From assembly GCF_900109145.1 (NCBI RefSeq), contig NZ_FNYY01000032.1:1-47426 (forward strand): a stretch of DNA of 47,426 nt, in the 5' to 3' direction. Origin of the DNA: Marinovum algicola. GTDB lineage: Bacteria; Pseudomonadota; Alphaproteobacteria; Rhodobacterales; Rhodobacteraceae. The notes under the pieces are model-generated. The model was not told the DNA's origin. It searched no databases and was given only the letters and a program-made list of their open reading frames with translations. Positions within the stretch are counted from its first letter, which is position 1. Each line of letters opens with the position of its first letter. Shown one piece after another: positions 298-46,441 of this stretch. The translations under genes and the position numbers were made by a program.

Positions 298-2862
298 TCA
301 GCAGAACAACAGGTTGAAATCCCGAACTCCGCATAACGGTGACGCGGCATATTGGTAGTTATCCGGAGTTCCGGATAAGACGTAGTCGCGGGGCGTCAGC
401 GCGCCTTCGACCAATTCATCGTCCGGGTCCATCATCTCAAGCCGGCGCTTCAGCAGGCTCTCACCCGTCGAGACCACCTGGATGACGCAAGCATAGCCTG
501 CCGACAGATCTTCCTCGATGGCACGGACAATGCTCGGGGCCTTCATGCCCATCAGGAGATGATTGAAGAACCGTTGTTTCGTGCTCTCGAAGCGGGACTT
601 GGCCGAGGCGCGTGCGGCGGAGGCATTGGTCTCGCCAGAGGCGTCGTTGACGCCGGTCGCCGTCAGCGCGGCTTCGAGATTGTGGTGGATCGTTCGAAAC
701 GCACCCGCATAGGCGTCGTAGATCTCGATCTGGGCCGAGGTGAGCGCGTGTTCGAGCACGTCATACTCCACGCCGTCGAAGCTGAGGGCGCGGGCCGTGT
801 AGAGCCCGAGCGTCTTGAGATCGCGGGCAACCACCTCCATGGCGGCGACACCGCCGGCTTCCATCGCCGAGACGAAGCTCTCGCGGCTTGGGAAGGGGTA
901 TTCGGGGCCCTGCCCCCAGAGCCCCAGCCGCGCGGTATAGGCTAGGTTGTGCACGCTCGTGGCACCCGTGGCCGAGATGTAGAAGACGCGGGCGCGGGGT
1001 GCTGCCAGTTGCAGCCGCAGGCCAGCAAGGCCCTGCTGGGAGGGTTTGACCCCCCTGCCCTGCTCGGACCCTGCCGCGTTCTGCATGGCATGGGCCTCAT
1101 CAAAAGCGAGAACGCCTTCAAAGTCTTCGCCCATCCAGTCGAGGATCTGGCTCAGTCGCGTGGTGCCGCATTTGCCCGCGGACCGCAGCGTGGCGTAGGT
1201 GACGAAGAGGATACCGTCGCCCATGGGGATGGGCTGATCCGGTTTCCATTTCGACAGCGGCTGAATGTCGGCGGGCGAGCCGCCGAGATCAGTCCAGTCG
1301 CGGATGGCGTCCTCGATGAGCGTGGCGGACTTCGAGACCCAGACGGCCTTACGGCGTCCGGCGAGCCATCCCGCGAGGATCAGCCCCGCACATTCCCGAC
1401 CCTTGCCGCAGCCGGTGCCGTCGCCAAGAAAGTAGCCGAGGCGATAGGCGCGCGCATCCGGGTCATGATCGGCACGCGTCATCTTGGTCTGGTCGTCATC
1501 GATGGTAAAACGCCCTGGCAGATCGCACCCATGGGCATAATGGGCCATGATGATGGTCTCAAGCTGCGCCTCGGAGAGGTGGCCCTCTTCGATCAGTCGG
1601 GCGGGCAGACGCAATGACTCGCTCGCCTCATGCGATGGCGATGGCGGCGCGACGGCGGCCATTGCGATACTTTCGACCAACGGCGTGGGATGTTCCCGAG
1701 CGCCCGCGATCTCGATCCGCTGCGGGCGGTAGCGGGCATAGATGTCCGAGACCGGCGTGTTGTCCCGTGGGGTCTCGAGACTGGTGAAGGTAAGCGGAAC
1801 GGCGGCGTTGGTTTTGGTCTTGGATGCCGCGACCGCTGCAACAGGCCGCTTGCGCGTGACAGGCACTGGAACGACCCTCCCCGCGTGAGGGCTCGTCGCC
1901 GCCCTTTGGGCGAGACGCGCCTCGGGCCGAATCGCAGCCACGGCGTCGACATATGCCAAAGCGTCGTCCAGATCCCGCACCGTGGCGCGGATGAACTCAC
2001 CACCCTCCGGCACCTTGTCGAAGACCATCAGCTGGGTTTCCACACTCGTGCCAAGCTTGCGATAAACCTGTCCCGGGATCGTCAGCGCCAAGCGCGGCGT
2101 GAAGAGGCCGCAGGCGCGCGACCAATGCGCGGCATCACGGTCGGGTGTGAACCCAGGCGGCATAATCGCCACCAGCCGCCCCCCGGGCGCGAGGCGCTTC
2201 GCGGCAGCGATGAGATGCTTGGCCGCGATGTGCTTATCCCTAGACCGATCGATCGAAGAGGCGAATGGCGGGTTCATCACCACGACTTGGGGCAGGACCA
2301 GTGTCTGCAGCAGATCGTCGATATGCTCACCATCGTGACCTGTCACCTCGCCCCCGAAGACCGCGCACAGGAGGCGCTGGCGAAACGGATCGATCTCGTT
2401 GAGCAGAAGCGTGGCGCCTGCGCGGGTGGCGAAAGCGGCCAGGGCGCCAGTTCCGGCGGATGGTTCGAGCACGGTCTCGCCCTTGCGGACCGCAGCCGCC
2501 CGCACGGCAAAGGCGGCAAATGGCAGTGGCGTGGAAAACTGCTGCAACCGGATCTGCTGCTCGGAGCGGCGGGTTTCCGTCAGGAGCCGCGAGGCGAGCA
2601 GCTTTGCAGCGGCAATACCACCCTCGGCGCCGTCTTGACGCAGCAGCACCTGAACAGCCGCAGCATGCATCATGTCATAGGCCATGCGCCAGTCCCACGC
2701 GCCACTGGCATCGCTGCCGCCGAACGCCTCCCGCATGATACGGGCAAGCGCCGAACTGCGCAGGGGCTGGTGATCAATCTCCGCTCCCATCTGCCTCAGA
2801 GCGGTGGAAAGATCGGGATCGGAGACGGTAAGAACTGGGTTTGTTGGGGTTGGCTTGGCCAT
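298..2862 (-). pseudogene. Methyltransferase / strawberry-notch-type helicase fusion, 3' end lost
   Basis: The N-terminal half is a class I SAM-dependent methyltransferase-like domain: motif I VLEPSAGTGALAAF near residue 130 and the catalytic-type NPPF motif near residue 196. The second half is a superfamily II helicase motor of the strawberry-notch type: Walker A-like GTGCGKG near 478 and DEAH near 586. Plasmid members of this family are about 1,400 residues. This ORF has 854, and its last ~25 residues, after LTPRDYV, are encoded by the palindromic element end at 298-378. The second helicase lobe is therefore missing and the product is probably not functional as a helicase. Start ATG 2862 follows AAAGGACAAACCCC. 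It is the last gene of the minus-strand plasmid backbone block. Confidence 0.85.
321..378. repeat. Inverted repeats at the element/helicase junction
   Basis: A perfect 9-bp inverted repeat with a 2-base centre, TTATCCGGAGTTCCGGATAA, lies at 359-378. An imperfect partner, CCCGAACTCCGCATAAC, lies at 321-337 in inverted orientation to 358-374. These are typical of tyrosine recombinase binding sites or element ends. The helicase reading frame stops resembling its family exactly where the palindrome begins (378/379), so 378 is taken as the element boundary. That boundary is an inference. Confidence 0.55.
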
Positions 2863-2973
2863 GGGGTTTGTCCTTTGGATCAGGGTCTGAGTTCCAAAAG
2901 ACAAAAAGCCCCCTCTACACTTTGTAAGAGCAGAACGCTCGAAGGAAGCGCCGGTGCTTGATGGTCTAGTCGT

Positions 2974-3630: not shown

Positions 3631-4223
3631 TATGCCGCCCTCCGATCGTCGATCTCCGTGAGCGCATCGAGCGGCACGCGATAGGGCTGCATGGCGTCGA
3701 AATCCTCGCAATTGCCGCAGTTCTGGACGATCGCGAAGGTGTCACAGGCGTCCTTGAGGATGACTCGGAAGGTACCCCCGAGACCAGAGGGCACGTCATA
3801 GGCTCCGCCGATGAGATAATCCGCTGCGCGGCGCACGAAGACGCGGATGCTGTGACCATCAGTGGCGAGCCGGATCGTGCCCTGCCCCCGGTCGATGAGC
3901 ACCTGCACGTCGTCCAGGATGTCCGTGTAGAACTGCCCGGTCAGGTCGCGAAACGCCATGCGGCGCTGCGCCATCCAGTCGGTGTCCCGAAACGGGTTCA
4001 TGCCGTCGGCGAAGGCGAAGGAGGGATCCGCCTGCTCGGTGGTGACGATGCGGGTGGTTGTGCCATCAATGCCGTTCGAGCGCAGATGCACGCCATTGCC
4101 GACGATCAGAATCAGGGCGGGCCTGTCCACGGGTCCGTTCCAGTTGGGCAGGAAGGTCTTGCAGCCGCGCGCATGGGCGATCTGCGCTGCGACAGCGGAC
4201 GCGGAGAACTTGAGAATAGCCAT
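3630..4223 (-). CDS. DUF3085-like protein
   Basis: This 197-residue protein has an N-terminal segment (ILKFSASAVAAQIAHAR) followed by ALILIVGNGVHLRSNGIDG, which matches the DUF3085 pattern as I recall it. Function is unknown. DUF3085, DUF6927, ParB-like, DUF3768, ArdC and the methylase/helicase usually travel together on alphaproteobacterial plasmids, and that is the order here. The start ATG 4223 is followed by GCTATTCTC and preceded by a GACATCCCC leader like those of its neighbours. It ends with TAG overlapping the next gene's GTG. Confidence 0.6.
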   Translation of the reverse strand: MAILKFSASAVAAQIAHARGCKTFLPNWNGPVDRPALILIVGNGVHLRSNGIDGTTTRIVTTEQADPSFAFADGMNPFRDTDWMAQRRMAFRDLTGQFYTDILDDVQVLIDRGQGTIRLATDGHSIRVFVRRAADYLIGGAYDVPSGLGGTFRVILKDACDTFAIVQNCGNCEDFDAMQPYRVPLDALTEIDDRRAA

Positions 4224-6891: not shown

Positions 6892-7824
6892 TCAAGCGGC
6901 CTGGTCGACCTCCCCTGCCCTGCCCGCCTCCGATCGCGCAATAAGGTAATCACAGGCGCGCTGCGCATCGGCCGCGTGCTTGAAAATCGCCTGCTTGTCC
7001 GAGCGCAGCACCCGCAGCCAGTTGTAGAGGTAAGCGGCATTCATCTCGAGCGTATGCGACGTGAAGCCAAGTTCCTGCCCCAGAAAGCACGACGTGAGCT
7101 CGGCCACGATCTCCTCGCGCGCATAGGCTGTGTTGCCAAACCGCGAAAGACCGTAGTCGCGGTTCAAGCGATGGCGCGCCTTTGTGGCATGGCCCAGTTC
7201 ATGGGCCCAAACCCCATAGAAATTTGGCGAATTTTGAAACCGCGTAATCGGCGGCATGTAGACCTTGTCTACCGGTGGCAGATAATAGGCATCGCTACCC
7301 GTGAAGACGGTGGTGATATCGATGGCATCAAAAAAAGCCTGCATATGGGGAATGGGTTCAGCGGGCGGATGCTCAGGCACCGGGTCCGGCTCGGGATGGA
7401 AGCTATCCGGCAACCCCTCGATCTGGCAGGCGTTGAACACGCGATAGGATTTTTGGAAACGGAAGACGCGGGCCTCATCCCCATCGGCCTCGTCGGCGTC
7501 TCTAGACGCCTTGTCCTGTTTCCGGCTCTGGCCGTAATAGACCACCACGGAGGACTTCTCGCCCTTGCGGACCTTGGCGCCCAGGGCATTGGCCTGTGGG
7601 ATCGTCATCCAGTAGGGCGAGCTGTGGCCAGCCATCACGGTCCGCATGGTCAGCAGGAAGTTGTTGACGCCTTGATATGCCTCGCCGTTGTGACGGAGCG
7701 GGCGGGAACTGCCACCGGCGGTCCAGGGCTTGCGCCACGGCAGGACGCCGCGCTCGATGATACGGATGATTTCGTTTGTGATGACCTCGGAGGCATCGAA
7801 TTTGGGCGTGCGGGAACGGGCCAT
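6892..7824 (-). CDS. ArdC-type antirestriction protein / zincin-like metallopeptidase
   Basis: The 310-residue protein has an N-terminal ssDNA-binding-type ArdC domain (ASEVITNEIIRIIERGVLPW, HNGEAYQGVN) and a C-terminal zincin-like peptidase domain with HELGH at residues 208-212 and a downstream AREEIVAELTSCFLG helix. ArdC proteins are known from conjugative plasmids, where they protect incoming DNA from host restriction. Start ATG 7824 has a strong AGGAGG box seven bases upstream. Family length is about 300, so the gene looks intact. Confidence 0.88.
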   Translation of the reverse strand: MARSRTPKFDASEVITNEIIRIIERGVLPWRKPWTAGGSSRPLRHNGEAYQGVNNFLLTMRTVMAGHSSPYWMTIPQANALGAKVRKGEKSSVVVYYGQSRKQDKASRDADEADGDEARVFRFQKSYRVFNACQIEGLPDSFHPEPDPVPEHPPAEPIPHMQAFFDAIDITTVFTGSDAYYLPPVDKVYMPPITRFQNSPNFYGVWAHELGHATKARHRLNRDYGLSRFGNTAYAREEIVAELTSCFLGQELGFTSHTLEMNAAYLYNWLRVLRSDKQAIFKHAADAQRACDYLIARSEAGRAGEVDQAA

Positions 7825-9899: not shown

Positions 9900-11261
9900 T
9901 TATGCAGCCTGCCCGCTCAATCGACCATAGAAGCTGCGCTCGAGATGCAGCTCCCCTGCCCCGGCTTTCTCGACCATCCCACGCAGATATCCGCCCGGTG
10001 ACGCCACTTCGCCGGCGCAAAGCTTGTCGAACGTGAGAACCAGCGCCGCAGTTGCGATTTGTGGCCCAAGTCGGTCCTGCGCGAGGTTCCAGGCGTGTTC
10101 AGAAACGCCGATCATCGGCCTCAACTGCCCCACAACACGGTGCAGATCGCCCCAATCCTTCAGATATCCGCCCATATTGCGCGCCCACGACACAAATTCA
10201 GGACAGGCTTGCATGACTGTCGGCAGATCAAGAGCTGCCCCGCGCTTCTTGCGCGTTTCAGCCACCCAATCTTCCAACTCCCTATCAACTCGCTCTTCCG
10301 GTGGCGCATTTGGCACCACGCTCGCCGTTTCCTCTTTTTCTGAGGAATTACAGGTTACAGGATTAAGTTGATTTGTAATTAGTATATGAGGTTCGGAAAT
10401 GACCTCCCTGGGGTCCATTTCTTGAGTCTTCTGAAGTACTTGCTCGGTGGTTTCAGCTGTGTTTTCCACAACCTCATCCGCTCGAACTGCCTTGAGGTAC
10501 GTGGCCTCTACACGTTCCTGGAGCTCTTTGAACCACGCCAAAAGCCGTTCCAGTGCCTCAGAGGCCGTGTTCCTGCGCGGAAGGCGGTCCAAAAGATCCT
10601 CGAAAAGGCCTGTGAGCTGCGTCCACGGGCCTCTCAGCGCGCCGCTGAGCGCAGCCTCGATCCGCGCTCGGATCATCCTGCGGGCCACAGTGATCTGCCG
10701 CTTCAGGCGCTGACAGTGCGCGCGCTCAGCCTGCAGCTCTGCGTGTAGCTGCTGGAACTCTTCTACGCGAGCGGACAGCGGCGACAAATCAAAGCCGTAG
10801 GCCTCAATGATACGGCCCTCTGCGTCCCTGTGGCCCCAACGCTTGCCATTAGGGCTGTCTTTGAAGGCGATTACACCGATCTCGGCCAGGCGACGCGCAT
10901 GGCGCTTGAGCGCAGAGAGTGAAAAGCCCGTTTGCTCCATCAGATAGGCATTGGAGGCCCAGACGATCGGGCGCTGACCCTCTTCCCAATCTTGCGCCTG
11001 CGTGTAGGCCCCAAGTGTATCGAGGAGCATCATATCCCCTGCCTTGAGGCCGATATGCGCACCGACGCGTTTCACGGCGACAAAGGCCTGTGTTTTGGGC
11101 ACGGCTGCTCTTTCACCAGCCTGTGCGTGCTGTTCAGCGACGGCGAGTCCGGCTGTCGCCTTCCGCCACCCCGAGGGTTGGTTGATATTGGACATATCTC
11201 TACTGTTCTGAGGCATGCCTGTCTCAGTCGCTCCATGCGGAGCATTATTGAATTTCGTCAT
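9900..11261 (-). CDS. repC: Plasmid replication initiator RepC
   Basis: The 453-residue protein has the RepC layout. Residues 30-170 form a winged-helix DNA-binding region (LGAYTQAQDWEEGQRPIVWA, MEQTGFSLSALKRHARRLAE), followed by a helical section. A low-complexity acidic linker runs around 300-330, and the conserved C-terminal part has SWARNMGGYLKDWGDL and SPGGYLRGMVEKA. RepC starts replication in cis. In repABC plasmids the origin lies inside repC, usually in its AT-rich middle; here the stretch at 10310-10460 is the most AT-rich part of the gene. The start is uncertain: ATG 11261 or ATG 11216 (with GGAG upstream) would both work. Expression is expected to be limited by the ctRNA just upstream. 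Confidence 0.93.
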   Translation of the reverse strand: MTKFNNAPHGATETGMPQNSRDMSNINQPSGWRKATAGLAVAEQHAQAGERAAVPKTQAFVAVKRVGAHIGLKAGDMMLLDTLGAYTQAQDWEEGQRPIVWASNAYLMEQTGFSLSALKRHARRLAEIGVIAFKDSPNGKRWGHRDAEGRIIEAYGFDLSPLSARVEEFQQLHAELQAERAHCQRLKRQITVARRMIRARIEAALSGALRGPWTQLTGLFEDLLDRLPRRNTASEALERLLAWFKELQERVEATYLKAVRADEVVENTAETTEQVLQKTQEMDPREVISEPHILITNQLNPVTCNSSEKEETASVVPNAPPEERVDRELEDWVAETRKKRGAALDLPTVMQACPEFVSWARNMGGYLKDWGDLHRVVGQLRPMIGVSEHAWNLAQDRLGPQIATAALVLTFDKLCAGEVASPGGYLRGMVEKAGAGELHLERSFYGRLSGQAA

Positions 11262-11467: not shown

Positions 11468-12439
11468 CTATCCTTCGTGGCTCTCTGATTGGAACCGATC
11501 GAAGGAATCCTGAATGAGCTGGTCCAAATTCTGATCCAGCCAATTCGCGAATCTCGTGTTCTCCCCTGCCCGCTTGACGGTGACCGAGAGCACCGATTTA
11601 CCACTTTTGATCTGCACACCGGGAACGGGCGAGCGCTCCTCGACAGATCGTTCTTGCTTACCTCGTTTGCCAATTTCCTTGAGAACGAGGTCTAGCCGTC
11701 CGTCGGAGGCGAGATCACCAGATTGACCAAGAACACCCAGAACACCCTCCTCCGAGAGTTGTTCTTTCTCAAACGCCGTTGCGAGTGTGGTCCATTTCGG
11801 GCGCCCTGCTCCTGGAGCCGCGCCGATGGCTTCACCGACAGCCAAGGGTACTAGCCGATTGATACGCTCAAGCTGCGAAAGAGTGTTCTTGCTGATAGCC
11901 AAAGCCTGGCACGCCTCCACACGCGAGTAGCCCTGCTCCAGGATCGCTTGCGCGAACCGAACACGTTCATAATAGCTCAGTTCAGCGCGGCCCGCATTTT
12001 CGAGGCCTTTCGCCATCAATGCATCGGTATCATCGAGCGTCCGGATCAGAGCCCGCACTGGTATCCCCAGATGGCGGCACGCAAGTATTCGTCTCTGGCC
12101 GTAGATGACCTCGAAATGCCCGTCACGATCCTTCGAAGGACGTAGAAGCACCGGGACTTGCTGCCCGGCATCAGCGATGCTGGTTGCGAGATCCTTGATC
12201 GATTCACTCGATGCGGCGCTGTTAACAGCTGTTAATTCGATATCCAGCCGGTCCTTGGGTCCCCAAGCTAGGATAAGATTTGTATCGATATCCTGGATGC
12301 CGCCGAGACCCGCACGAACAGAGCCGATGGTTCCTTTCGGCAATGTTCGATGAGCTCTATCAGAAGCCCCATCTTTCGGCGTCTCAGTCGCCGCAGTAAT
12401 CGCAGCCATGATGCCGGTTTTGTTTTTACCCATAGCCAT
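11468..12439 (-). CDS. repB: Plasmid partition protein RepB (ParB family)
   Basis: The 323-residue protein carries a ParB N-terminal domain (SIKDLATSIADAGQQVPVLL, EVIYGQRRILACRHLGIPV, LENAGRAELSYYERVRFA) and a helix-turn-helix (GYSRVEACQALAISKNTLSQ) expected to bind the parS palindromes. The C-terminal part has a RepB-type region (SVLSVTVKRAGENTRFANW). The start ATG 12439 lies two bases after the repA stop. An in-frame ATG at 12454 would overlap repA. The gene itself contains a parS-like site at 12221-12236. Confidence 0.93.
   Translation of the reverse strand: MAMGKNKTGIMAAITAATETPKDGASDRAHRTLPKGTIGSVRAGLGGIQDIDTNLILAWGPKDRLDIELTAVNSAASSESIKDLATSIADAGQQVPVLLRPSKDRDGHFEVIYGQRRILACRHLGIPVRALIRTLDDTDALMAKGLENAGRAELSYYERVRFAQAILEQGYSRVEACQALAISKNTLSQLERINRLVPLAVGEAIGAAPGAGRPKWTTLATAFEKEQLSEEGVLGVLGQSGDLASDGRLDLVLKEIGKRGKQERSVEERSPVPGVQIKSGKSVLSVTVKRAGENTRFANWLDQNLDQLIQDSFDRFQSESHEG
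12221..12236. promoter_or_regulatory. parS-like site inside repB
   Basis: GTTAACAGCTGTTAAT differs from the perfect palindromes at 11447 and 13766 only in the last base. It sits within the N-terminal coding part of repB, which is unusual and could let RepB load on its own gene. Confidence 0.65.
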
Positions 12440-12441
12440 GA

Positions 12442-13623
12442 TTACCGCCCCCAAGCCTGTTGAAGCATTCCCGCAATCTCAGCACCAACCGCATCCATGC
12501 TGTTCTTTGCGCGATCATAGGTCGATCTGGTCATCTCGGATCGCGCAACCTCGTAGATCGACATCTTGAGCATCGATGCGTCGCCAATAGCCGTACTACG
12601 CAGTCCGGTCGCCCCAACAACACGATCCTGAAAAAGAGCGCGCATAAGGCTCACGATCTGCTGACTGGGGATATCGCTCGGATCGTCCCGCGTAATGAGG
12701 AAGGAGAAAAAATCATGATCGAGTTTGACGCCCGTGTCCTCGATCACACCAAGATAAGCAGAAGTCATTTCGACAAACTGCTGGGTGGAAGCAAGGTCGA
12801 GCATGCTCGGCGTCATCGGCACGATGACCGAGGTCGCAGCGTAGAGGCCGGTCAAAGTCAAGAATCCGAGAGCTGGTGGGCTGTCGATAACCACCACGTC
12901 GTAGTCACCCTCAACGGACTGGATCGCCAGGCTGAGCTTCTCAAAGAATGCAACGCCACGACCTGCATTGACCGCAGTTTCTGTTTCAAACTCGCTTAGA
13001 ACAAGCCGGGCAGGAGCCAAATGAAGGCCAGGGAAATAGGTTTCTACGATGGCCTCGGACATCGGCACCGGGTCTTCATAGCGAAGTGCGTCGTAAATCG
13101 ACGCCCCTTCAAACTCCAGTTCAGTCTGAATCCCGCAAAAACCCGTGAGGCTCCCTTGCGGATCCAGGTCAATCGCCAAGACCCGGTAACCGTTCAATGC
13201 AAGGTAGTGACACAGATGAATCGCAGAGGTGGACTTCGCAGATCCACCTTTGAAGTTCATCAGCTGAATAACCTGAAGCTTGTCGCCCTCGCGACGGCCA
13301 GGAAGGTATTTGCCGGATTTACGAGAGCTAGCCTCCAAAAAATGGCGGGCTTGAAGGATCTCTTCACCGGAATAAAATCGCCGTCCGTTCTTGATTACTT
13401 CCGGCTCCGGCAAGGACCCGTCGCTATGGCACTTGCGCAAGAATTGCCCGGTCACCCCTAGAAGATCAGCAGTCTCTGTAGCGCTGAATAGTCTCAAATT
13501 CTTGCGTTGATCGGGCGCGTAGGCTTGCTGAAGATGCGTCGTGAGCGCGGTGTGTAGACGCGCTGCTATCTGGCTTGTAAGCTCGGATTGAGACGCCGCT
13601 TCGATTGGTGCCGTCTGGAACAT
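12442..13623 (-). CDS. repA: Plasmid partition ATPase RepA (ParA family)
   Basis: The 393-residue protein has an N-terminal helix-turn-helix with DLLGVTGQFLRKCH and DGSLPEPEVIKNGRRFYSGE, as expected for RepA autorepressors. A deviant Walker A motif (NFKGGSAKSTSAIHL) follows near residue 130, with later VLAIDLDPQGSL and VVIDSPPALGFLT segments. It powers plasmid segregation with RepB and represses the repABC operon. It is first in the operon, followed two bases later by repB. The N-terminus is preceded by a parS-like palindrome at 13766. Confidence 0.95.
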   Translation of the reverse strand: MFQTAPIEAASQSELTSQIAARLHTALTTHLQQAYAPDQRKNLRLFSATETADLLGVTGQFLRKCHSDGSLPEPEVIKNGRRFYSGEEILQARHFLEASSRKSGKYLPGRREGDKLQVIQLMNFKGGSAKSTSAIHLCHYLALNGYRVLAIDLDPQGSLTGFCGIQTELEFEGASIYDALRYEDPVPMSEAIVETYFPGLHLAPARLVLSEFETETAVNAGRGVAFFEKLSLAIQSVEGDYDVVVIDSPPALGFLTLTGLYAATSVIVPMTPSMLDLASTQQFVEMTSAYLGVIEDTGVKLDHDFFSFLITRDDPSDIPSQQIVSLMRALFQDRVVGATGLRSTAIGDASMLKMSIYEVARSEMTRSTYDRAKNSMDAVGAEIAGMLQQAWGR

Positions 13624-13765
13624 GGTTGCTATTTCTCTGCTCGAACGCGCTTATTTGCGCAACTTGACTCTAATGGCCGTGATTCACCATGTTAAGTCAA
13701 GGATTTTATCCACAAATTGTGCTGTCGGACCAAAGGGCTACTAGGGAAGCCACGCACCCTCTAGA

Positions 13766-13781
13766 GTTAACAGCTGTTAAC
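13766..13781. promoter_or_regulatory. parS-like palindrome upstream of repA
   Basis: A perfect copy of GTTAACAGCTGTTAAC, 143 bases before the repA start. On the minus strand a possible -35 TTGACT (13700-13695) lies between this site and repA, so RepA/RepB binding here could govern both partition and operon repression. Confidence 0.8.
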
Positions 13782-14503
13782 AGCACCCACGAACTAGCGG
13801 TACAGCAAGACATCTGTCGTCGATTGGGCGTCGCTCCCAACCGATCCGATAACGGTCCCTCGACCGAAAATTAGGCTGGCGAGAGAGACAATGCACATAG
13901 GCGGATTGAAACCAAGCACCGACAGATCTACCGCGGAACAAGGGCCCCAATGGGCCAAATGTCGAAGTTACATTGATGCTCAAGAGCCGAGGTTAAACGC
14001 CGAGATCACATTCGCATCGCATCAACAAGGTTGGTTAAGACCCTGACGTCTGGCGCGTCAACGGTGCCCAGCAGGGTAGGGGGGGCGGCACCGTTGCTTT
14101 CCCGGCAGGAACAATATTCGACGTAGAGCACCGCGTAGATAGAACTAGTTCGACTACACCTCGCCGGACCTCAAGACCTGCTAGTTGAGCCCTCGTTGTT
14201 TAGGACGGATGAGTGGCGATCCGTGGCAATTTAAGTTCCCGAGTTTGTCCGTAGAACGAACGGTCCGCACTCCCTACAGCCGATGCGCTCGCTCGGCCGC
14301 TTCGAAAAAGCGCTGGAAATGAAGAGCGGATACCGTGCTTGCCGCCGCCCAAACTACGGCTCAATGACGCAACTCCTTCACCAGCTTTCTGGGGGCAGGT
14401 TGCGCCCAGTTTCGCTGTCCAGATGATCCACGTTGAACATCGATGGCAGTTGCCTTGCGAAGCTCAAAGGTGCAGGAACACCCGCCGACGAAATACTAGG
14501 GCA
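13782..14503. other. Intergenic region upstream of repABC
   Basis: No convincing gene. The clearest structure is AACGGTGCC (14060-14068) pairing with GGCACCGTT (14087-14095) around an 18-base G-rich loop (with a GGGTAGGG octamer at 14074) and followed by GCTTT. It may be a terminator or a structural element. The GGGCAGGG strand polarity changes somewhere between 11581 and 14499, so this region may hold the actual symmetry point. Confidence 0.4.
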
Positions 14504-14809
14504 GGGGCCCCGGATCAATGTCCAGGTCCTGATCGAAGCGCTTATCAATTGCCGGAGGCAAGCGGGTTCAGCTGTGACGACACCGGAGCTTGTCTCGCGG
14601 GCATCCAGTCCTTGTGCCTGGTCGAGGATCTGACGATCCAAACCCATCAGGTGGGTCGCGCCATAACGGAGAAGTATCAGTTCTCGGTCCATGACGCGGT
14701 GATCGTGGCTGCCGCGCTGATCGCCGGATGCACGACACTGTGGTGCGAGGACATGCACGACGGATTACTCGTGGAAGAGCAGTTGCGCATCATCAATCCA
14801 TTCTCCTGA
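14499..14809 (+). pseudogene. PIN-domain (VapC-type) toxin remnant
   Basis: Two frames together give a PIN-domain C-terminal half. One frame carries INVQVLIEALINCRRQAGS. After a shift near 14575-14610, the other frame carries QSLCLVEDLTIQTHQVGRAI, YQFSVHDAVIVAAALIAGCT and TLWCEDMHDGLLVEEQLRI before the TGA at 14807. Acidic residues of the fold (HDA, CEDM) remain, but the N-terminal catalytic part and any antitoxin gene are missing. It is a decayed toxin next to the plasmid maintenance genes. Confidence 0.7.
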
Positions 14810-14870: not shown

Positions 14871-15764
14871 TTATTGCGCGGGCTTCAGCAAACCCAACTT
14901 CTCCGCCCGTTCCAGCAGCATCCTCACGGACGACGGCTGCCAACTGGCGCGTCCACGCGGGGTGCGTTCGCGCATCGCCTCTAGCCGGTCACATATCGCC
15001 TGAAGCGTGATGTCGGGGTCCGCGCCCTTGATGCCAGCGACGATGGCGGGCAGGCGGTCGTCGGTTTCGCGACGTCCGGCGCGGCCCAGAACCTCGGCGG
15101 GCAGGAACCCGTCGCGCACATAGGCTTTCACGGCGCGCAGAAGGCGGCTCTGAGTCCAGTGCCCATCATGGGGCAGGGGGCCGTTGATGATCCGCAGCAC
15201 ATCTTCCCAGGCCATATCGGGCCGCAGGCGGCGCACATGGGGCACCCAGTCCTGCGCGGTCTCGCTCAAGCGCTCCATATAGCCGTCCTGTCGTGCCAGC
15301 CGTACTTTGCGCAGCGCGGCGGGGTCCTTTGCGCGAAGCCCGGGGTTGCCGCCCACGCGACCCTTGGCGCGCGCAGAGGCAAGCCCGGCCTTGGTACGTT
15401 CGCAGATCAGGGCGCGCTCGAACTCGGCCGCGGCGCCGAGAACCTGCAACGTGAACTTGCCTTGGGGGGAGGACGTGTCGATCGGGTCCTGGAGCGAGCG
15501 GAAGAAGGCACCCTTGGCCTCCAGATGTTCGATCACCTCCAGTAGATGCGAAAGAGACCGCGCGAGCCGGTCGATCCGAACAACAACCAGCGTGTCGCCT
15601 TTGCTGATGCGCTCCAGCACGCGGGCAAGCACCAGCCGCGCTCGATTGCCGCCTGAGGCGTGCTCTTCATGGATCTCGACACATCCCGCAGTTTGCAGGG
15701 CCTCAGACTGGGGCAGGGGGGTCTGATCGTCTGTGGAAACGCGCGCGTAGCCTATCAGGGGCAT
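14871..15764 (-). CDS. Serine recombinase (resolvase/invertase family)
   Basis: The 297-residue product starts MPLIGYARVSTDDQ, with the nucleophilic serine in ARVST. VRIDRLARSLSHLLEVIEHL and FTLQVLGAAAEFERALICER continue the catalytic domain and E-helix to about residue 140. The C-terminal part has repeated helix-turn-helix-like segments (ALRKVRLARQDGY; DITLQAICDRLEAMRER; SSVRMLLERAEKLGLL), longer than in classical resolvases (about 185 residues). It probably resolves plasmid multimers or mobilises an element. Start ATG 15764 was chosen at the family start. A separate tyrosine recombinase lies immediately upstream in the same direction. Confidence 0.85.
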   Translation of the reverse strand: MPLIGYARVSTDDQTPLPQSEALQTAGCVEIHEEHASGGNRARLVLARVLERISKGDTLVVVRIDRLARSLSHLLEVIEHLEAKGAFFRSLQDPIDTSSPQGKFTLQVLGAAAEFERALICERTKAGLASARAKGRVGGNPGLRAKDPAALRKVRLARQDGYMERLSETAQDWVPHVRRLRPDMAWEDVLRIINGPLPHDGHWTQSRLLRAVKAYVRDGFLPAEVLGRAGRRETDDRLPAIVAGIKGADPDITLQAICDRLEAMRERTPRGRASWQPSSVRMLLERAEKLGLLKPAQ

Positions 15765-15821
15765 AAAACGGGCCCTTTGCAATTTAAGATATTACCAATA
15801 AACGACCGAATGAGCGCGCGA

Positions 15822-31512: not shown

Positions 31513-32127
31513 ATGACGTTCGATCTCCTGCACGATCTTCCGGACTACGCTCCCGAACAGATGTCGGCCGACGCGGTCTTCACGCGTGCCACGCAGGATG
31601 TGCTCCTGGCCAGTCTCGGCGATATCGAGGGATTACGCCGGCCGGCCGCTCCGGTGGCGCTCTGGCTGAAGCACTCTCTCGGCAATGCGTGGTATGATTC
31701 TTACTCCCGCCTGATAACGGTTCTCAGCCATCACGGCCCATGGATAGACAGGACTCGGATGAAGGAGCTTGATCCGGTGAGCCGGGCGCAGGTGTCGGAG
31801 GTTCTCGCCACATTCTTCCAGCAAGAGCACCTGTTCAGCATGGTATACGGCGACGTCGGGTTCGAAAGCCATGAGGTGATCGAATCCGTTCACTTCGCGA
31901 GCTTCAGCATGTTCTGGATTTCCGGCAGTTTCGACGACCTCGAGGAACACTGGGAGGGGAAAGATCGGCGCGAGGACTTCGAAATTCCTCACCACGCGCT
32001 CCTGAAAATCTGCGCCCGGTCCATAGCCAACGAAAAGGACGCGTGCCTGCAGCGTATGGAGATCCGCCGTGGCCTCCGCCTTGTCCAGGGTTTCGGCGTG
32101 CTCGGGCAGGGAGACTTCGTCTTGTAG
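31513..32127 (+). CDS. Hypothetical protein
   Basis: I do not recognise this 204-residue protein. It is soluble and acidic, with aromatic-rich helices (LATFFQQEHLFSMVYGDVGF; FASFSMFWISGSFDDLEEHW) and a basic C-terminal stretch. Start ATG 31513 has AGAAAGG eight bases upstream. It is followed by a strong hairpin at 32196-32228 and then by convergent genes, so it is probably transcribed alone. Confidence 0.6.
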   Translation: MTFDLLHDLPDYAPEQMSADAVFTRATQDVLLASLGDIEGLRRPAAPVALWLKHSLGNAWYDSYSRLITVLSHHGPWIDRTRMKELDPVSRAQVSEVLATFFQQEHLFSMVYGDVGFESHEVIESVHFASFSMFWISGSFDDLEEHWEGKDRREDFEIPHHALLKICARSIANEKDACLQRMEIRRGLRLVQGFGVLGQGDFVL

Positions 32128-34726: not shown

Positions 34727-34794
34727 TGCACAGGTTTCTCTTTGAACGTGGGCCGGGTCGGTGTTTTCGGGGCGACGCGGTTCGGCGACATGGG

Positions 34795-35169
34795 TCATGC
34801 GTCCCAACCACACACCAGGCACCCGTCAGCGCGCACATCCTCGAGCAGTATGTAGAGAAGCACGCGGTAGTAGGGCAGGGCGGCCACCCAATCTTCCGGT
34901 TCGGACCAGTAAAAGTCCTCCGGAACCGCGTATTCGAGTTCTGCGAATTCCTCGGAATCGTTCGGCGGCATTGGCAGCCCGTGCTGCGCCATTTCCCGTT
35001 CGATCTTCTCGATGATGGCGCTCACCATGCGGCGCGTGACGTAGAAATCGTGAACGGTCTCGAGTTGGACCAGGGGCTCCGCCGTGAACATGTCGAGGAA
35101 CTCGGAGTGATTGCGAAACCGGAGAACCTCTATCTCGTCCTGGCGATAGAATGCGTAATCAAGGCTCAC
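34795..35169 (-). CDS. Hypothetical acidic protein
   Basis: The 124-residue product, MSLDYAFYRQDEIEVLRFRN at its start, is rich in Glu and aromatic residues (MPPNDSEEFAELEYAVPEDF, WSEPEDWVAALPYYRVLLYI). No family recognised; a small acidic protein could be a DNA mimic, but nothing else supports that. ATG 35169 has GGAGG-like sequence (AAGGAGGCCCCC) upstream, a good ribosome site. Confidence 0.6.
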   Translation of the reverse strand: MSLDYAFYRQDEIEVLRFRNHSEFLDMFTAEPLVQLETVHDFYVTRRMVSAIIEKIEREMAQHGLPMPPNDSEEFAELEYAVPEDFYWSEPEDWVAALPYYRVLLYILLEDVRADGCLVCGWDA

Positions 35170-35373
35170 GTGGGGGCCTCCTTATTAGGTGAACGCGGTC
35201 CTTGAATGGCCGCTGCATTGGACATGGGTTCCGATCGAGAGCCGCGGAAATGAAATCCGGCGGAACCTCCTCGTCCTGAGAGCCGCCAGCGCCCTGCGGT
35301 GCCGGCCAATGGATTGGCCGGGCGAGGAAGGCACCGGGCGGGGTCGGAACCTCGCGCCCGGCGGGGCAGCAGG

Positions 35374-36021
35374 TTACCGCACGAAGGTATGGTCCGATCC
35401 GCCTCTGGCGAGAAAGTCATCTACCCTCGGCAGTTCGAGGCGCCGGTTCAGGCTCTTGCGGACTGCCGGCGGAAGAGCCGAACGGAACAGTTTCATGTAC
35501 CGCTTGGTTTTCTCGAGGCGCTGCGCCGCCTCCGCCCGCGATCTTGCGCCTTCCAGCATTATCATGAGGGGACGGGACGCTCTGTGGCCGGGCTGGCGGC
35601 CCCAGTTGCCGTGCAGCCAGTCCGGATGCACGTAAAGGATGGCATCGGCGAACTGGACCAGGTGGATCTGGAAGGGCTGCCCCGGCTCGATCATCTTCGC
35701 CTGACGGACGATCAGGTGATGATCGATGCCGCAGAACGGGACCGCGGTAATCTCCTTGAAAACTGCGGCATCTGCGTCCGGCATCTCGTCGATGAAGGCG
35801 TTCTCCGGTTCCAGCACGCCCTTCCTGTAGGCCACTTCGCAGTGAACCTGCTTCGCGGAGGCTGAGTCCGGCTGGTTGGTGATGCCGCCGAAGACGCCGA
35901 TGATATCTCCGATGCTCGCGCGTTCGGGGGCGACGAGGTGGGGTACCTGGGGCAGGGGGCCTGTCAGCGGTGCAACGGACATGCGGGCGGCGGCGGAGCT
36001 GGCGTGCAGCGAGATGGTCAT
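35374..36021 (-). CDS. Hypothetical protein
   Basis: The 215-residue product has an N-terminal part with ERASIGDIIGVFGGITNQPD, a central FKEITAVPFCGIDHHLIVRQ and IHLVQFADAILYVHPDWLHG, then a basic helical C-terminus (SRAEAAQRLEKTKRYMKLFR). No family recognised. The start ATG 36021 is preceded by AAGAGGACTTCACC. It lies first in the minus-strand run and faces away from the large ATPase gene at 36464. Confidence 0.6.
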   Translation of the reverse strand: MTISLHASSAAARMSVAPLTGPLPQVPHLVAPERASIGDIIGVFGGITNQPDSASAKQVHCEVAYRKGVLEPENAFIDEMPDADAAVFKEITAVPFCGIDHHLIVRQAKMIEPGQPFQIHLVQFADAILYVHPDWLHGNWGRQPGHRASRPLMIMLEGARSRAEAAQRLEKTKRYMKLFRSALPPAVRKSLNRRLELPRVDDFLARGGSDHTFVR

Positions 36022-36463: not shown

Positions 36464-38761
36464 ATGTCGACCATCATACCTCCCCGCGATCCTGCCGGCC
36501 GGTTCGGCGGGCAGGGGGCCTACCCGGCCGGAGCGACTGCGCCCGCCACGATGTTCACCAGGCTGCAGGATGCCGAGCCCAACCTTCGGGCGGCGCTGTC
36601 CGTGGCCATCACGCAGCTGACAGGGATAGAAGCCGCCGAGGAGGAGGCCCCGGTCCCGGCGGCCGTGATCGCGGCCAGCCCCGGGGCTGGCAAGAGCCGG
36701 CTCGCGCGGGAGCTGCTCGAAAGCTGTGCCGGGGACAAGCCGGTGGTGTTTCACGCGCCGACCCTGGCGCTCTGCGAAGAGGCCGCCGATCATGCGCGTG
36801 AGATCGGCGGGGCGGCGCATGTGATCCGCGGACGTTTCGCGACGGATCCGGCAGAGCCGGACCAGCAGATGTGCCGGAAACCGGCGCTGGTCGCGCGCGG
36901 GATCAGCCTGGGGCTCAATATCCGGGAAAGCTTCTGTTTCAATGACGATGCACGGTGCGAGTTTGCCGGCAGTTGCGCCTGGCTGCGCCAGTTCGAGCCG
37001 GACCAAACCATCGGCCATCGATACATGGCGACAAGCTACCTCGGGTACCCCGATCCCGACGCGTACGATGGCGTTCTGCGCGTGGTCGACGAAACGTTTT
37101 GGGCGCAGCAGCTGTCGTTCGTGACGATCGGCATCGATGAATTTCGCCTGCCGCGCACCTTCATGAAGCACTTCACGCGGCGCGGCCGGAAAGAGGAATC
37201 GCGCGTCAAGGCGCATGCGGACCTGATCGGGGCCGCGCATGCGCTTGTCGATGCGCTGATCGCCGGCCGACCGCCGCTGGATCTACCTTACAGCGCCGCG
37301 GACTACCGGGGCTTTGCCCGCCTCGAATACGCGGCCCAGGCGGATATACCCGCGCCGACGCCGGACCAGACGGAAACGGAGCAATCGCAGCTTCTCACGC
37401 GCGCCGAGGATGCGCTTCGGCATGTGTCCTGGTACGCCTCGGTCTGGACCTGTCTTGCCGCGGCGAAGGAGGCCGGGCGGACGACGATCGAGCGCCTGCG
37501 CCTCATACGTGGCAATGGCAGGATGGTCATCCGGGTCTGCCGGAAGCATCCCCCAAAGCATCGACAACCGATGCTTATCCTCGACGCGGATGCCGATCCG
37601 GAAATCGTCGGTGCGCTCGATATCGACCTCCAACGCACCGCGCACATGGTGCTGCGACCCAATGCCGAGGTCGTGCAGGTCCATGACCGGCGCATGACGC
37701 ATGGAAGCCTGCTGCAGGGCACGGACCTGCGCGAGACCTGGCGTCGCGTGATCCGTCGCGAGGTGCTGAGCGACCGGGTCGAGAAGGGCCGCGGCGTGCT
37801 CGTCGGCGCCAGCCGCAAGGTGGTACTGCGGTTTTTCGAAGATGCCGGCCACGACTTCGACGGGCTGTCGGACGACGAAGCGTCCCGTTTCATGCTGGAG
37901 ACACCGCTGCACGGGGCGCATTGGCTGTGGTTTGGCGGCAGGTCGCTCGGGACCAACCGGTATCGCGATTTTTCGACGGTGATTGTCATCGGACGCGAGG
38001 AACTGCCGGTCGAGGCGCTCGAGGACCATGGGCGGGCCCTCTGGGGTGATCGTGCGGGGGTCGATCTGGAGTTCGTCGCGCCCGGTGAAGATGGGGCGCT
38101 GCGCCTGCCTGATCGGGAAGTTCTCTACGAGATGTCGGATGGCAGCGCGAAAGCCGTGCGCCTGCCCTGCCACCCGGATCCGCTGATCCGCCGGGTTCAG
38201 GTGCAGACGCGGGAGCTGGCGACACGGCAATTGGTCGAACGTCTGCGGCTTGCGCGTTCGGAGACCCGCAAACGGGTCATCCTCGGCTGCAACATGCCGG
38301 TCCCCGGGCTGCCAGTGGATGAGCTGGTCTCCTGGCAGGCGTTTTGTCCGACCCGACCCGTCGCCGCACTGACTGATGCCGTCCTCGAGAAAGGCGGGAT
38401 CCGTCTGTCGGACGCGGGGCTCGTAGAGGATGCGCCGACGGTCTTCCCGACACTCGATTCCATCAAATCTTTCCGAAAACGGGAGGGGGTCGACGCCCGC
38501 GCCATCCTTGGGGCTCTGAGTCCTCGCCTGCGCGGTCAGCTGCACGTCATGCATCTCAAGGAGGATCGTCCCCACGCCCGCCTTTGTGAGGCTCTGGTCT
38601 TGGCCGGATCCGGCGAGGAGGCGCTTCGCAGCGCGGAAACGATCTGGGGACCTCTCAAGCAGTGCGTCGGAGCCGGGGAGGGCGACAGGGCCGGCGCGCG
38701 TGCCGATGCGGTGCTGGGGGGCCACCGCATCGGCACGTCGCCGGTGTCGCCTTCTTCATAG
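36464..38761 (+). CDS. P-loop ATPase/helicase-like protein with cysteine cluster
   Basis: The 765-residue protein has Walker A AASPGAGKSRLARELL near residues 69-84 and a Walker B/DEAD-like LRVVDETFWAQQ near 205. Between them are four cysteines with spacing C137-x20-C158-x6-C165-x5-C171, like iron-sulphur clusters in DinG/XPD-type helicases. A second-lobe-like part follows (MLILDADADPEIVG; GRGVLVGASRKVVLRFF; RDFSTVIVIGREELP). I suspect a plasmid-encoded helicase or primase-linked ATPase, but I cannot name the family. The start follows CGAGGACCGATC. It heads a plus-strand set of four genes. Confidence 0.6.
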   Translation: MSTIIPPRDPAGRFGGQGAYPAGATAPATMFTRLQDAEPNLRAALSVAITQLTGIEAAEEEAPVPAAVIAASPGAGKSRLARELLESCAGDKPVVFHAPTLALCEEAADHAREIGGAAHVIRGRFATDPAEPDQQMCRKPALVARGISLGLNIRESFCFNDDARCEFAGSCAWLRQFEPDQTIGHRYMATSYLGYPDPDAYDGVLRVVDETFWAQQLSFVTIGIDEFRLPRTFMKHFTRRGRKEESRVKAHADLIGAAHALVDALIAGRPPLDLPYSAADYRGFARLEYAAQADIPAPTPDQTETEQSQLLTRAEDALRHVSWYASVWTCLAAAKEAGRTTIERLRLIRGNGRMVIRVCRKHPPKHRQPMLILDADADPEIVGALDIDLQRTAHMVLRPNAEVVQVHDRRMTHGSLLQGTDLRETWRRVIRREVLSDRVEKGRGVLVGASRKVVLRFFEDAGHDFDGLSDDEASRFMLETPLHGAHWLWFGGRSLGTNRYRDFSTVIVIGREELPVEALEDHGRALWGDRAGVDLEFVAPGEDGALRLPDREVLYEMSDGSAKAVRLPCHPDPLIRRVQVQTRELATRQLVERLRLARSETRKRVILGCNMPVPGLPVDELVSWQAFCPTRPVAALTDAVLEKGGIRLSDAGLVEDAPTVFPTLDSIKSFRKREGVDARAILGALSPRLRGQLHVMHLKEDRPHARLCEALVLAGSGEEALRSAETIWGPLKQCVGAGEGDRAGARADAVLGGHRIGTSPVSPSS

Positions 38762-38770: not shown

Positions 38771-39238
38771 ATGTCTCATGCTGCCACCGACCCTGTTTAT
38801 CCGGGCGATATCGTTTCGTTCAGGTTTCCGTATTCAGAGGGGATGGCGCCCTATGCGCGCCCCTGCGTCGTTCTTGACGCCACGGAGGACGAACTCCTGC
38901 TCGCGTACGGTACCTCGTCGCGGGAGCGTGCCAACGTGGGCTTCGAGCTCCGCGTGAATGCCGAGTTCGCCGAGTGCGGCCTCGACCGGGCGAGCCGTTT
39001 CGTTCTGGCGCGGCGGATCCGGATCGCGCGGTCCGATCCGAGACTTGAAACAAACGCCTCGGGAACACCGGTTCTCGGACGCCTGACAGAGGCTCTGCGC
39101 CTGCGGAAGGCGGATCTCTTCGCGCGGATCAAGGCGAGTTGGCCGGAGGAGGCGGCCCGGCTCGAGGCGGAACGCCGCGGTCTGCATCCGCGCAAGGGTG
39201 ATCGCCGCCGCAGGGCAGGGGCCCCGTACCGGATCTGA
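38771..39238 (+). CDS. PemK/MazF-like fold protein
   Basis: The 155-residue protein begins with a MazF-like barrel: PVYPGDIVSFRFPYSEGMAP, then YARPCVVLDATEDELLLAYG. A basic C-terminal helix follows (RKADLFARIKASWPEEAARL). In MazF toxins the Arg after the second strand (here ARPCVVL) is part of the RNase site. No antitoxin gene is adjacent: the preceding gene is the ATPase, nine bases upstream, suggesting one transcript. So it may be a non-toxin relative. Confidence 0.6.
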   Translation: MSHAATDPVYPGDIVSFRFPYSEGMAPYARPCVVLDATEDELLLAYGTSSRERANVGFELRVNAEFAECGLDRASRFVLARRIRIARSDPRLETNASGTPVLGRLTEALRLRKADLFARIKASWPEEAARLEAERRGLHPRKGDRRRRAGAPYRI

Positions 39239-42268: not shown

Positions 42269-42269
42269 C

Positions 42270-42602: not shown

Positions 42603-42635
42603 GGCAGGACCTCGCCTGATTGGCCAGAGAGACTG

Positions 42636-44366: not shown

Positions 44367-44434
44367 CGTATCGCGCCGCGATCGCCACGCGCACCGGTTT
44401 CAGGTGTGGGCGGACGTTTCCCTATCTCCAGTTC

Positions 44435-44478: not shown

Positions 44479-44494
44479 CGACAAGGAGATGGAC

Positions 44495-46441
44495 ATGACC
44501 CAACATACATTCCGGGACCTGCTGGATTGGGCCGTCGTACACGAAGAGGGAACCGACACGGTCCGGGCCATCCGTTATGTCCCGGCACGGCTCGGCATGC
44601 TCGATCACGATATCGCCACGCTGCCGGCCGACATGCGGTTCTTCGAGACCACCGTCGCCGGGCAGGGCTATGCGTTGGTCAGCCGGGCTCGGAACATGAA
44701 GAGCAACGGACGCCGGGCGGATTCCCGGATCCGGTCCGCTCTCCGGCGGTTCCTGCAATCGAAGGCGCTCCTTCCGCCGCCCACGCCCGCGCATCGACAG
44801 CGGTACACGCAGCTGATGGCACTGATCGAGGCCGAGGAGGGCGTTCCGGGCTCAGGCGCGCTCTGGAACACGGGCCGGCACCGCAGCCTGGCCATCCTGC
44901 GGGCCCGGGCAAACTGCGCGCCGGAGGCGCTGACACAGGCCGAGATCGACCGGATCGGGCGCGAGATCTCCGCGGATGATCGCAAGAGCCTGCGCAAGAC
45001 GGTCGCGTTCGTGAACGCGCTGAAGGGCGTCTCGAATACCCTGCCGGCGATCCGGGAGTTTCTTCCCGAGATCGATCTGATGCCGCCGGCCGGATCCGCC
45101 AGGGCGCGGCGGATGGACTGGGACGCCCTGCCGGCGCCGTTCCGGGCCTCCTTCGAGGCGCTGGCCGATGCCTGTCTCGCCGACAGTGAGGACCTGGCTG
45201 ACAGGATGCTCGCGCGGATCGAGGCTGGAGAAGACCCTGAAGCGGTCGCGGCCGAAGCCGATATCCAGGCCCTGCAGGAGGGGCGGGACATCGGCAAGCC
45301 GACGGCGGCGCGAAACGGGTATCGCCAGGCTGTCACCTGGTTGGTGCGGGCCTGGGAAGACAGTGGCCGGGATGCGCAGCACCTGAAGGACGTGCGTGAG
45401 CTCTTCGATCTCGAGATCGTAAAGGCCGCCATCGCACAGCAGCTCGCGCGATCCGATTCCGGGGCTGACCTGAAGGCCGGGCTGGAGTCGACGACGTTGA
45501 AGACGCGACTGACGCGGCTCATCACCCTGGCGCGGCACGGGTTCGAGGACGCCGGTCTCACGGCGGTGATCACGCTCCTGAAGACCAAGCATTACGACGC
45601 CCCTCGCACGAAGCGGAAGGCTTCGAAGTCCAGTGCCGTCATCATGGAAGTGGACCGGATCGCCGGGAAGCTGCGGCAATGCCCCGACCTCGCCTCGGTC
45701 TGGGCCAATGCGCCGACGCGGATCGCGGAGACCGCACAGCGGGCCCTCGACGCCGCGGTCAGCTCGAAGAAGGAGGCCCGGGAAGTGACGGCGTTGCGCC
45801 TCTTCGCGGGTGCCGCAGCCTACGCGCTCCAGATGTCGCGGCCGCTGCGGACGACCTGCCTGCGCCACACCCGGATCGCCTCCTCAGGCGAGGCGCATGC
45901 GAACCTGCTGCGAACGTCGCCGAACGAGACCCTCCTGACGTTCCGGTTCGCGCCCTGGGAAATCAAAAACGATGCCTGGGTCAACGTGGATGTGGTCGGC
46001 GCCGATGCGGAGATCCTCCGAGCCTGGCTCGACCACGGACGGCCGAGGCTGATCGACCTGCAAGGTCTCGACCCGGACAACATCTACCTCTTCCCGGGAA
46101 ACGCCCTGCCGTCGCAGGACGAAGGCGATCCTGTTGTGCTGCTGCGCGGAAGCTACTCGCCAAGCGCGTTCCTGGATCTGTGGCGGGACGCATCGGAAGC
46201 GCTCGGCGTGCATGAGACGCCGCATCGCATGCGCCACGTGGTTGCGCTGCTCTGCCTTGCGCTCCGGCCGGGCGATCATGCGTTCACCTCCTCGATCCTG
46301 GGGATCCTCGAAAGCACGGCGCGCAAGCACTACGGGCGCGATGATGGGCAGGCGGCGGCGCGGGAGGCGCGCGCGGCGATCCTCGCCGAGCACCCGGACC
46401 TCTTCAAGACACTGACAAGGAGATTGCGCGATGCGCGATGA
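44495..46441 (+). CDS. Large tyrosine recombinase-like protein
   Basis: The 648-residue protein has a C-terminal catalytic-type domain: first Arg region QMSRPLRTTCLRHTRI near residue 450, HRMRH near 577-581 (H-x-x-R), then ILESTARKHYGRDDGQ with the candidate nucleophile Tyr613. The long N-terminal ~400 residues are helical and not recognised. Large recombinases in groups of two or three occur in RIT elements, Tn554-like transposons and GInt (ginABCD) islands; which applies here is open. ATG 44495 was chosen six bases after AAGGAG. The next gene overlaps its end by 11 bases. Confidence 0.7.
   Translation: MTQHTFRDLLDWAVVHEEGTDTVRAIRYVPARLGMLDHDIATLPADMRFFETTVAGQGYALVSRARNMKSNGRRADSRIRSALRRFLQSKALLPPPTPAHRQRYTQLMALIEAEEGVPGSGALWNTGRHRSLAILRARANCAPEALTQAEIDRIGREISADDRKSLRKTVAFVNALKGVSNTLPAIREFLPEIDLMPPAGSARARRMDWDALPAPFRASFEALADACLADSEDLADRMLARIEAGEDPEAVAAEADIQALQEGRDIGKPTAARNGYRQAVTWLVRAWEDSGRDAQHLKDVRELFDLEIVKAAIAQQLARSDSGADLKAGLESTTLKTRLTRLITLARHGFEDAGLTAVITLLKTKHYDAPRTKRKASKSSAVIMEVDRIAGKLRQCPDLASVWANAPTRIAETAQRALDAAVSSKKEAREVTALRLFAGAAAYALQMSRPLRTTCLRHTRIASSGEAHANLLRTSPNETLLTFRFAPWEIKNDAWVNVDVVGADAEILRAWLDHGRPRLIDLQGLDPDNIYLFPGNALPSQDEGDPVVLLRGSYSPSAFLDLWRDASEALGVHETPHRMRHVVALLCLALRPGDHAFTSSILGILESTARKHYGRDDGQAAAREARAAILAEHPDLFKTLTRRLRDAR

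Follow-up and report, generated by a model that had tools for sequence, protein, structure and literature searches.

The DNA considered here, called the window, is the whole of a 47,426-bp contig (C52; NZ_FNYY01000032.1) from a 5.40-Mb, 62-contig draft genome of Marinovum algicola, and our subject is the octamer GGGCAGGG, whose strand flips at the replication genes of this contig. These genes form a repABC locus on the minus strand, comprising the replication initiator gene repC (9900..11261; Pfam RP-C, 1.8e-60, and RP-C_C, 3.4e-29), the partition protein gene repB (11468..12454; ParB_N, 1.1e-7), and the partition ATPase gene repA (12442..13623; AAA_31, 1.4e-33). Two further minus-strand genes adjoin rep, one for a serine resolvase (14871..15782; Resolvase, 1.9e-39), which may represent a plasmid-encoded resolution system, and one for a tyrosine recombinase (15822..16931; Phage_integrase, 8e-14).

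A search of both strands of the window revealed 19 exact matches to GGGCAGGG, occupying 18 separate places, against an expectation of 2.73 (standard deviation 1.60, maximum 8) from 100 dinucleotide shuffles. All seven matches of the left arm lie on the minus strand (908..915, 1053..1060, 3880..3887, the overlapping 6913..6920 and 6918..6925, 9954..9961 within repC, and 11564..11571 within repB), and all twelve of the right arm lie on the plus strand (14499..14506, 15171..15178, 15711..15718, 16592..16599, 18082..18089, 25676..25683, 32104..32111, 34873..34880, 35950..35957, 36509..36516, 39213..39220, and 44660..44667). The polarity switch falls between them, at 11572..14498, an interval that contains all of repA and most of repB. 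For 18 places, if the switch is preset at rep and the arms are taken to point outward, such polarity has a chance probability of approximately 2^-18. Control octamers were scarce and mixed in strand (one occurrence of GGGACGGG, three each of GGGAAGGG and GGGTAGGG, and two of GGGGAGGG).

An earlier note on this DNA had claimed a perfect strand polarity that flips at repABC, and our search bears out both parts; 18 of its 19 coordinates were exact, but the site that it placed at 11574 is really at 11564. The five plus-strand motifs that it had placed in minus-strand genes fared less evenly. Specifically, 15171 and 15711 do lie within the serine resolvase gene and 16592 within the tyrosine recombinase gene, but the sole open reading frame (ORF) of at least 150 amino acids at 34873 is on the plus strand (34726-35205), which leaves that example unsupported, while 35950 is ambiguous, being covered by ORFs on both strands; a profile scan of the minus-strand ORF there (35374-36021) gave no Pfam match. 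The octamer also conforms, as had been proposed, to GGGNAGGG, the consensus of the FtsK-orienting polar sequences (KOPS) that is printed in PMC13342612 and PMC11724359. The contig ends before any second polarity switch of its replicon.

Polarity of the octamer on complete plasmids

A 5-kb rep query matched 497 records, of which the best 40 were listed; NZ_CP069005.1 (152,756 bp, typed conjugative) was the best among these listed matches, with 95.5% identity over the query. The first set comprised this plasmid, 11 records picked from those 40, and pDSHI03 from another search, and its polarity statistics were computed on 12 complete Rhodobacterales plasmids. A second round added five further records from the rep-query matches and four Dinoroseobacter shibae plasmids taken by accession. 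In all, 22 records were counted and 21 analysed, with NZ_CP047170.1 (531 kb, 65+/65-) omitted for its size; the choice of plasmids was non-random, and related plasmids are not independent.

On NZ_CP069005.1, all 24 octamers fit two switches, the first at 51126-54490 (repABC lies at 52678-56402) and the second at 122955-133317, which spans the antipode; fixing the origin midway along the rep operon left a single discordant octamer. Across the 12 plasmids, with the terminus fixed at the antipode, 267 of 320 sites were concordant (p 8e-36). Further, when the 21,216 octamers with at least 20 occurrences were ranked with no prior choice of word, GGGCAGGG came first both for origin-to-antipode strand bias, where the top of the ranking consists mostly of words overlapping it, and for over-representation (z 12). 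Other GGGNAGGG words showed little or no bias (GGGAAGGG, 28/47 concordant; GGGTAGGG, 25/38), and GGGGAGGG was polar yet rarer (51/59).

Such a bias might be conceived as a functionless by-product of leading-strand mutation or base skew, in line with the guanine-cytosine (GC) skew being positive in the undisputed arms of 16 plasmids (0.004-0.049). However, the leading-strand GC skew amounts to just 0.013 on the 12 plasmids, against 267:53 for the octamer, and the bias retains a p of 4e-29 after base-skew correction, on which ground we reject base skew as its cause. The same letters reversed, GGGACGGG, are unbiased (30/59 concordant), and an octamer that is the most over-represented of all those ranked is hard to reconcile with a by-product, an explanation that we regard as extremely improbable. 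Gene strand was likewise rejected as the cause. The ratio of polar to antipolar octamers was 124:10 in leading-strand genes, 34:3 outside ORFs, and still 132:17 in lagging-strand genes, which upholds on the relatives the contention that coding strand does not explain the bias. In this control, genes were greedy long ORFs of at least 100 amino acids rather than annotated ones, and the terminus was the dif-like site (see below) in 10 plasmids and the antipode in two.

The second switch and the dif-like site

The sites that we term dif-like are 28 bp long, with two 11-bp arms around 6 bp, and were initially sought with a pattern taken from general dif anatomy. In the first set, this pattern matched 10 of 12 plasmids at 11 sites (two on W08; W numbers denote plasmids of our set), and in nine of the 10 a site lay inside the fitted convergence gap of the motifs (P 7.7e-9). 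A weight matrix was then built from 10 first-set sites and those on three host contigs, with W14-W22 held out; sites were called strong at a score of at least 23.9, the lowest kept, a threshold drawn after the scores were known, and the best score on 24 shuffled sequences was 15.9. By this measure, 16 of the 21 plasmids, ranging from 31.6 to 190.5 kb, carry a strong site (23.9-40.9), which in 15 of the 16 falls within the convergence gap. Among the nine held-out plasmids, six carry a strong site, and all six sites are in the fitted gap. W21 has a second candidate as well, at 22.2.

The smallest of the 16 plasmids is among these six. On NZ_CP012161.1 (31.6 kb, W18), the two-switch fit accommodates 15/15 motifs, with the strong site in a 2.3-kb gap, and on NZ_CP045363.1 (65.9 kb, W21) it accommodates 18/18, with the strong site in a gap of 1.46 kb. 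The strong site is also in the gap on NZ_CP102414.1 (38 kb; 10/10 motifs, a wide gap of 24 kb), NC_020907.1 (62.9 kb; 14/15), NZ_CP045388.1 (73.5 kb; 18/18), and pDSHI01 (27/28). Measured against 300 strand shuffles, the fit was weak for NZ_CP102414.1 (0.033), NC_020907.1 (0.050), and pDSHI04 (0.067), and no shuffle equalled it in the other six held-out plasmids.

The earlier note had expected a second switch about half-way round the replicon, near a dif-like site. Such a switch does exist on the complete relatives, but on the 12 plasmids it was frequently not opposite rep, and it tracks the dif-like site instead. Specifically, placing the terminus at dif rendered 244 of 267 first-set sites concordant, compared with 221 for the antipode and with a mean of 197 and a maximum of 228 for 2000 random termini. 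On the 16 plasmids with a strong site, 342 of 371 octamers were polar with respect to dif, including 39 of 39 within 10 kb of it. In the arcs where dif and the antipode make opposite predictions, 34 motifs follow dif and two follow the antipode, which we reject as the second switch.

These observations bear on another alternative, a role for GGGCAGGG as a Chi-like signal in recombination or repair (AddAB/RecBCD); signals of this kind also incline to the leading strand. In Escherichia coli, Chi is typically an octamer over-represented on the leading strand, and the GC skew too is directed toward dif in 14 of 16 arcs, though barely in two, so that a replication-linked signal would flip there as well. 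Chi, however, has a leading-strand polarity of roughly 75%, and the 39/39 found near dif is stricter. The switch at dif-like sites and the presence of an FtsK-gamma domain in the host point to FtsK, as does the conformity to the KOPS consensus (PMC13342612, PMC11724359), and a Chi-like role appears very unlikely.

A separate observation concerns the surroundings of one such site. On NZ_CP015092.1, a Mu-type transposase/TniB/TniQ gene set (49042-52963) ends approximately 0.6 kb from the dif-like site; Tn402-type elements are resolution-site hunters.

The origin switch at rep

At the other end of the arms, a single switch point upstream of repC, located 1300-1750 bp downstream of the start of repA and thus within the 5' part of repB, is compatible with 16 of 18 replicons (17 plasmids and the window, which is among the 16), the exceptions being pDSHI03 and pDSHI04. 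The 18 replicons are not independent, because motif positions are conserved in related operons. For W14, W16, and W17, the rep position was read from the annotation after the motif fit. In a partly blind test, the origins of four D. shibae plasmids were predicted from the motifs and the annotation was read afterwards, yielding two matches, one near match, and one miss. On pDSHI01, repABC occupies most of the predicted gap; on pDSHI05, the gap holds parB and part of parA, with the initiator gene 1.2 kb beyond; and on pDSHI04, repABC starts 0.7 kb from the gap. The motif signs of pDSHI02 form two divergences, neither with an annotated rep gene, and two convergences, each of the latter having a weak dif-like site (83184 or 18874) no more than one motif away. 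This plasmid is possibly a fused one.

The host draft genome

The whole draft holds 913 occurrences of GGGCAGGG, compared with 228 of the reversed control. Of its seven RepC loci, five coincide with a motif divergence or come within 0.7 kb of one: those on C58, C47, and C36 are inside one (20-kb stretches), and those on C52 (the window) and C50 are within 0.7 kb. On C50, the minus-strand motifs at 26-31 kb form a run whose end is 0.6 kb away from that of the RepC match, as in an origin-type switch. A 20-kb piece of this contig aligns over 85% of its length, at 98.8% identity, with a plasmid of Marinovum algicola DG 898. A further motif divergence, at C18:56667-59984, has no RepC match and stands beside a ParB_N gene; it probably marks where a plasmid with a different type of replicon has its origin.

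The strict pattern placed dif-like sites on C34, C49, and C50; C15 carries a variant. Motifs converge on the sites of C34 (22+/1- then 0+/5-) and C49 (2+/0- then 0+/5-), and more weakly on that of C50 (16+/7- then 2+/3- in the first 180 kb). With the weight matrix, C50 has a candidate scoring 20.8. Around the C15 variant, the counts are 8+/0- then 1+/3- (80 of 89 kb). We rejected this variant (C15:48742) as the chromosomal dif because it occurs with at most one mismatch in one of 61 genomes, the host only, and also because C15 carries conjugation and RepC genes. A weak RepC match (C15:47097-48763) ends 1.2 kb from the variant, close to a motif convergence, a setting that would suit a terminus better than an origin.

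With regard to the machinery, an FtsK-gamma domain is encoded on C24 (PF09397, 8.8e-28) and matches FtsK chains of the solved structures 2j5p, 2ve8/2ve9, and others, 2ve9 being a KOPS complex. XerD-family recombinases that score below the model cut-off are encoded on C32 and C35.

A probable chromosome-like layout for plasmids

In summary, GGGCAGGG is over-represented, runs outward from repABC along both arms, and in most of the complete relatives tested converges on a 28-bp dif-like site. By its sequence and its arrangement, we classify it as a putative KOPS. Very probably, GGGCAGGG is the KOPS of this group, guiding FtsK to a dif-type XerCD site, with the plasmid laid out like a small chromosome. 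This suggests that even small plasmids of the group use the cell-division DNA pump of chromosomes. Host septal FtsK would load on GGGCAGGG through its gamma domain and move each plasmid arm toward the terminus, where, on reaching dif, it would switch on XerCD recombination, which in turn would convert plasmid dimers into monomers during division. The window would be the origin part of such a plasmid, with its dif expected on another contig, for which C34 and C49 are candidates. The proposal of a KOPS motif, or one of the related AIMS (architecture-imparting sequence) type, that guides a translocase to a resolution site gains support from the second switch, the dif-like site in its gap, and the coding control on the relatives. 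The arrangement is not, however, special to the window's plasmid.

Several observations weigh against this interpretation. First, a matrix scan of the 47-kb window located no dif-like site (best score 9.6), and five of the 21 plasmids (W02, W13, W15, W16, and W17) have no strong one. The best score on W17 is 13.1, and the weaker candidates on W02 (19.5), W13 (20.1), W15 (20.8), and W16 (16.7), which exceed the shuffled maximum, lie outside the fitted gaps; counting these four, dif is in the convergence gap in 15 of 20. On W05, even a strong site (35.6) is outside its gap. Second, on the 16 plasmids, octamer density is at its highest (4.84 per 10 kb) within 10 kb of rep and at its lowest (1.27) within 10 kb of dif, the opposite of the chromosomal trend, in which KOPS are denser near the terminus than near the origin. 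Third, replication may end near dif too, and because the GC skew also tilts toward dif, geometry alone does not distinguish replication ending there from guidance of FtsK. Fourth, some origins do not conform: on pDSHI02 (NC_009956.1, W15), a gene table known to be incomplete lists no rep gene either at the fitted divergence or in the 49.9 kb covered; the sites at the C28 RepC locus of the host are all on the plus strand, including one that falls on the wrong side of repC; and the weak RepC match on C15 sits near a convergence rather than a divergence. Finally, the XerD model gave 16 matches in the host, none of which reaches the curated cut-off of 329.6 bits (the highest scores are 311.5 and 228.6), and no chromosomal dif was found in the host draft with the patterns used, including one modelled on the Rhodobacter sphaeroides sites printed in PMC2731167.

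The resolvase and tyrosine recombinase genes that the plasmids themselves carry count against it as well, and they underlie a further alternative, in which the KOPS are real and aid segregation or decatenation, while dimers are resolved by the plasmid's own recombinase beside rep and the dif-like sites are relics or exchange points. Such genes adjoin rep in the window, NZ_CP069005.1, pDSHI01, and pDSHI03, and the five plasmids without a strong dif fit this alternative, as does plasmid R27, which has an xrs and its own recombinase gene and is stable in the wild type with either deleted (PMC11724359). Conversely, the dif-like sites have retained their form, and of the 16 plasmids that carry a strong site, 15 have it at the polarity switch; we consider this alternative unlikely, if worth keeping in view.

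Possible recombination at dif

An all-against-all alignment of the 21 plasmids and three host contigs disclosed 34 alignment ends within 58-bp windows at 19 dif sites, compared with 1.36 expected; 2000 random site sets gave a mean of 1.65 and a maximum of 25. The 34 ends are 17 pairs, each counted from both sides, and they reflect few separate events, because a small number of shared blocks accounts for all the pairs. Homology crosses dif in one pair only (pDSHI03 and pDSHI01). NZ_CP069005.1 and NZ_CP068999.1 share 14 kb at 98.5% identity, ending one base past dif, and on pPABY3 of Salipiger abyssi two blocks are neighbours, one ending at dif on host contig C49 and the other starting at dif on C34, with a dif site at the junction. 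Homology that ends at dif would be the pattern expected from XerCD exchange between plasmids; homologous recombination would hardly be expected to halt at the same 28 bp. More tentatively, and with rather less than even confidence, we propose that KOPS polarity with a single dif is a general building standard of Rhodobacterales plasmids down to approximately 30 kb, and that dif is also the point at which whole arms are swapped via XerCD. On this proposal, since a swap at dif keeps the KOPS polarity of both partners, unlike one at most other places, the FtsK system would both maintain plasmids and favour certain recombination points.

Relation to known systems

The arrangement resembles the chromosomal KOPS/FtsK/XerCD-dif systems of E. 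coli and Vibrio cholerae in its GGGNAGGG word, its outward orientation from the origin, its convergence on a 28-bp site of 11-6-11 form, and the presence of FtsK-gamma. It differs in occurring on plasmids down to 31.6 kb, in the N of the consensus being mainly C, and in the motif being densest near rep. Also related are R27 and other large enterobacterial plasmids, in which KOPS bias from the origin to xrs coexists with the plasmid's own tyrosine recombinase gene (Fournes et al. 2025, PMC11724359). According to that study, FtsK-dependent xrs are the rule above 250 kb, KOPS cluster significantly in 41% of plasmids above 75 kb, and R27 without its tyrosine recombinase is lost from xerC, xerD, or ftsK mutants. 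In contrast, five repABC plasmids of only 31.6-73.5 kb in our set gave 10/10, 14/15, 15/15, 18/18, and 18/18 in the two-switch fit. KOPS polarity that inverts at dif has been published for chromosomes, chromids, and large replicons, including those of Paracoccus and Cereibacter strains (Nat Commun 2026, PMC13342612), which belong to the same order and share the architecture described here; our plasmids are smaller, and it is this small size that sets them apart from the published KOPS/dif systems. Acinetobacter pdif modules (PMC13141974, PMC6449649) are similar in that Xer sites form the junctions of plasmid module exchange, but plasmids there often carry multiple pdif, whereas here there is usually one strong dif per plasmid, at the convergence of KOPS. 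The chromosomal dif of D. shibae is known from vesicle DNA (PMC7901474). Among the literature matches listed, with subscription literature mostly outside their scope, none described KOPS or dif on small Rhodobacterales plasmids, and the accessible portions of PMC10913375 and PMC4148982 do not mention KOPS or plasmid dif for this order.

If Rhodobacterales plasmids of 31-150 kb, several of which are typed conjugative by PLSDB, do use FtsK/KOPS/dif, the size rule drawn from enterobacteria would not be general. Further, one could often predict where a plasmid has its origin and terminus from nothing but its sequence, and the point of gene-block exchange between these plasmids would become known and testable.

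Other genes of the window

The window, which is probably marine bacterial plasmid sequence, also carries a HipA-like gene on the minus strand (40976-42268) and a gene for a TerB_N/TerB_C protein (23163-25691). For the stretch holding the latter, 42 plasmid records matched, with identity of 90-95% in 30 cases.

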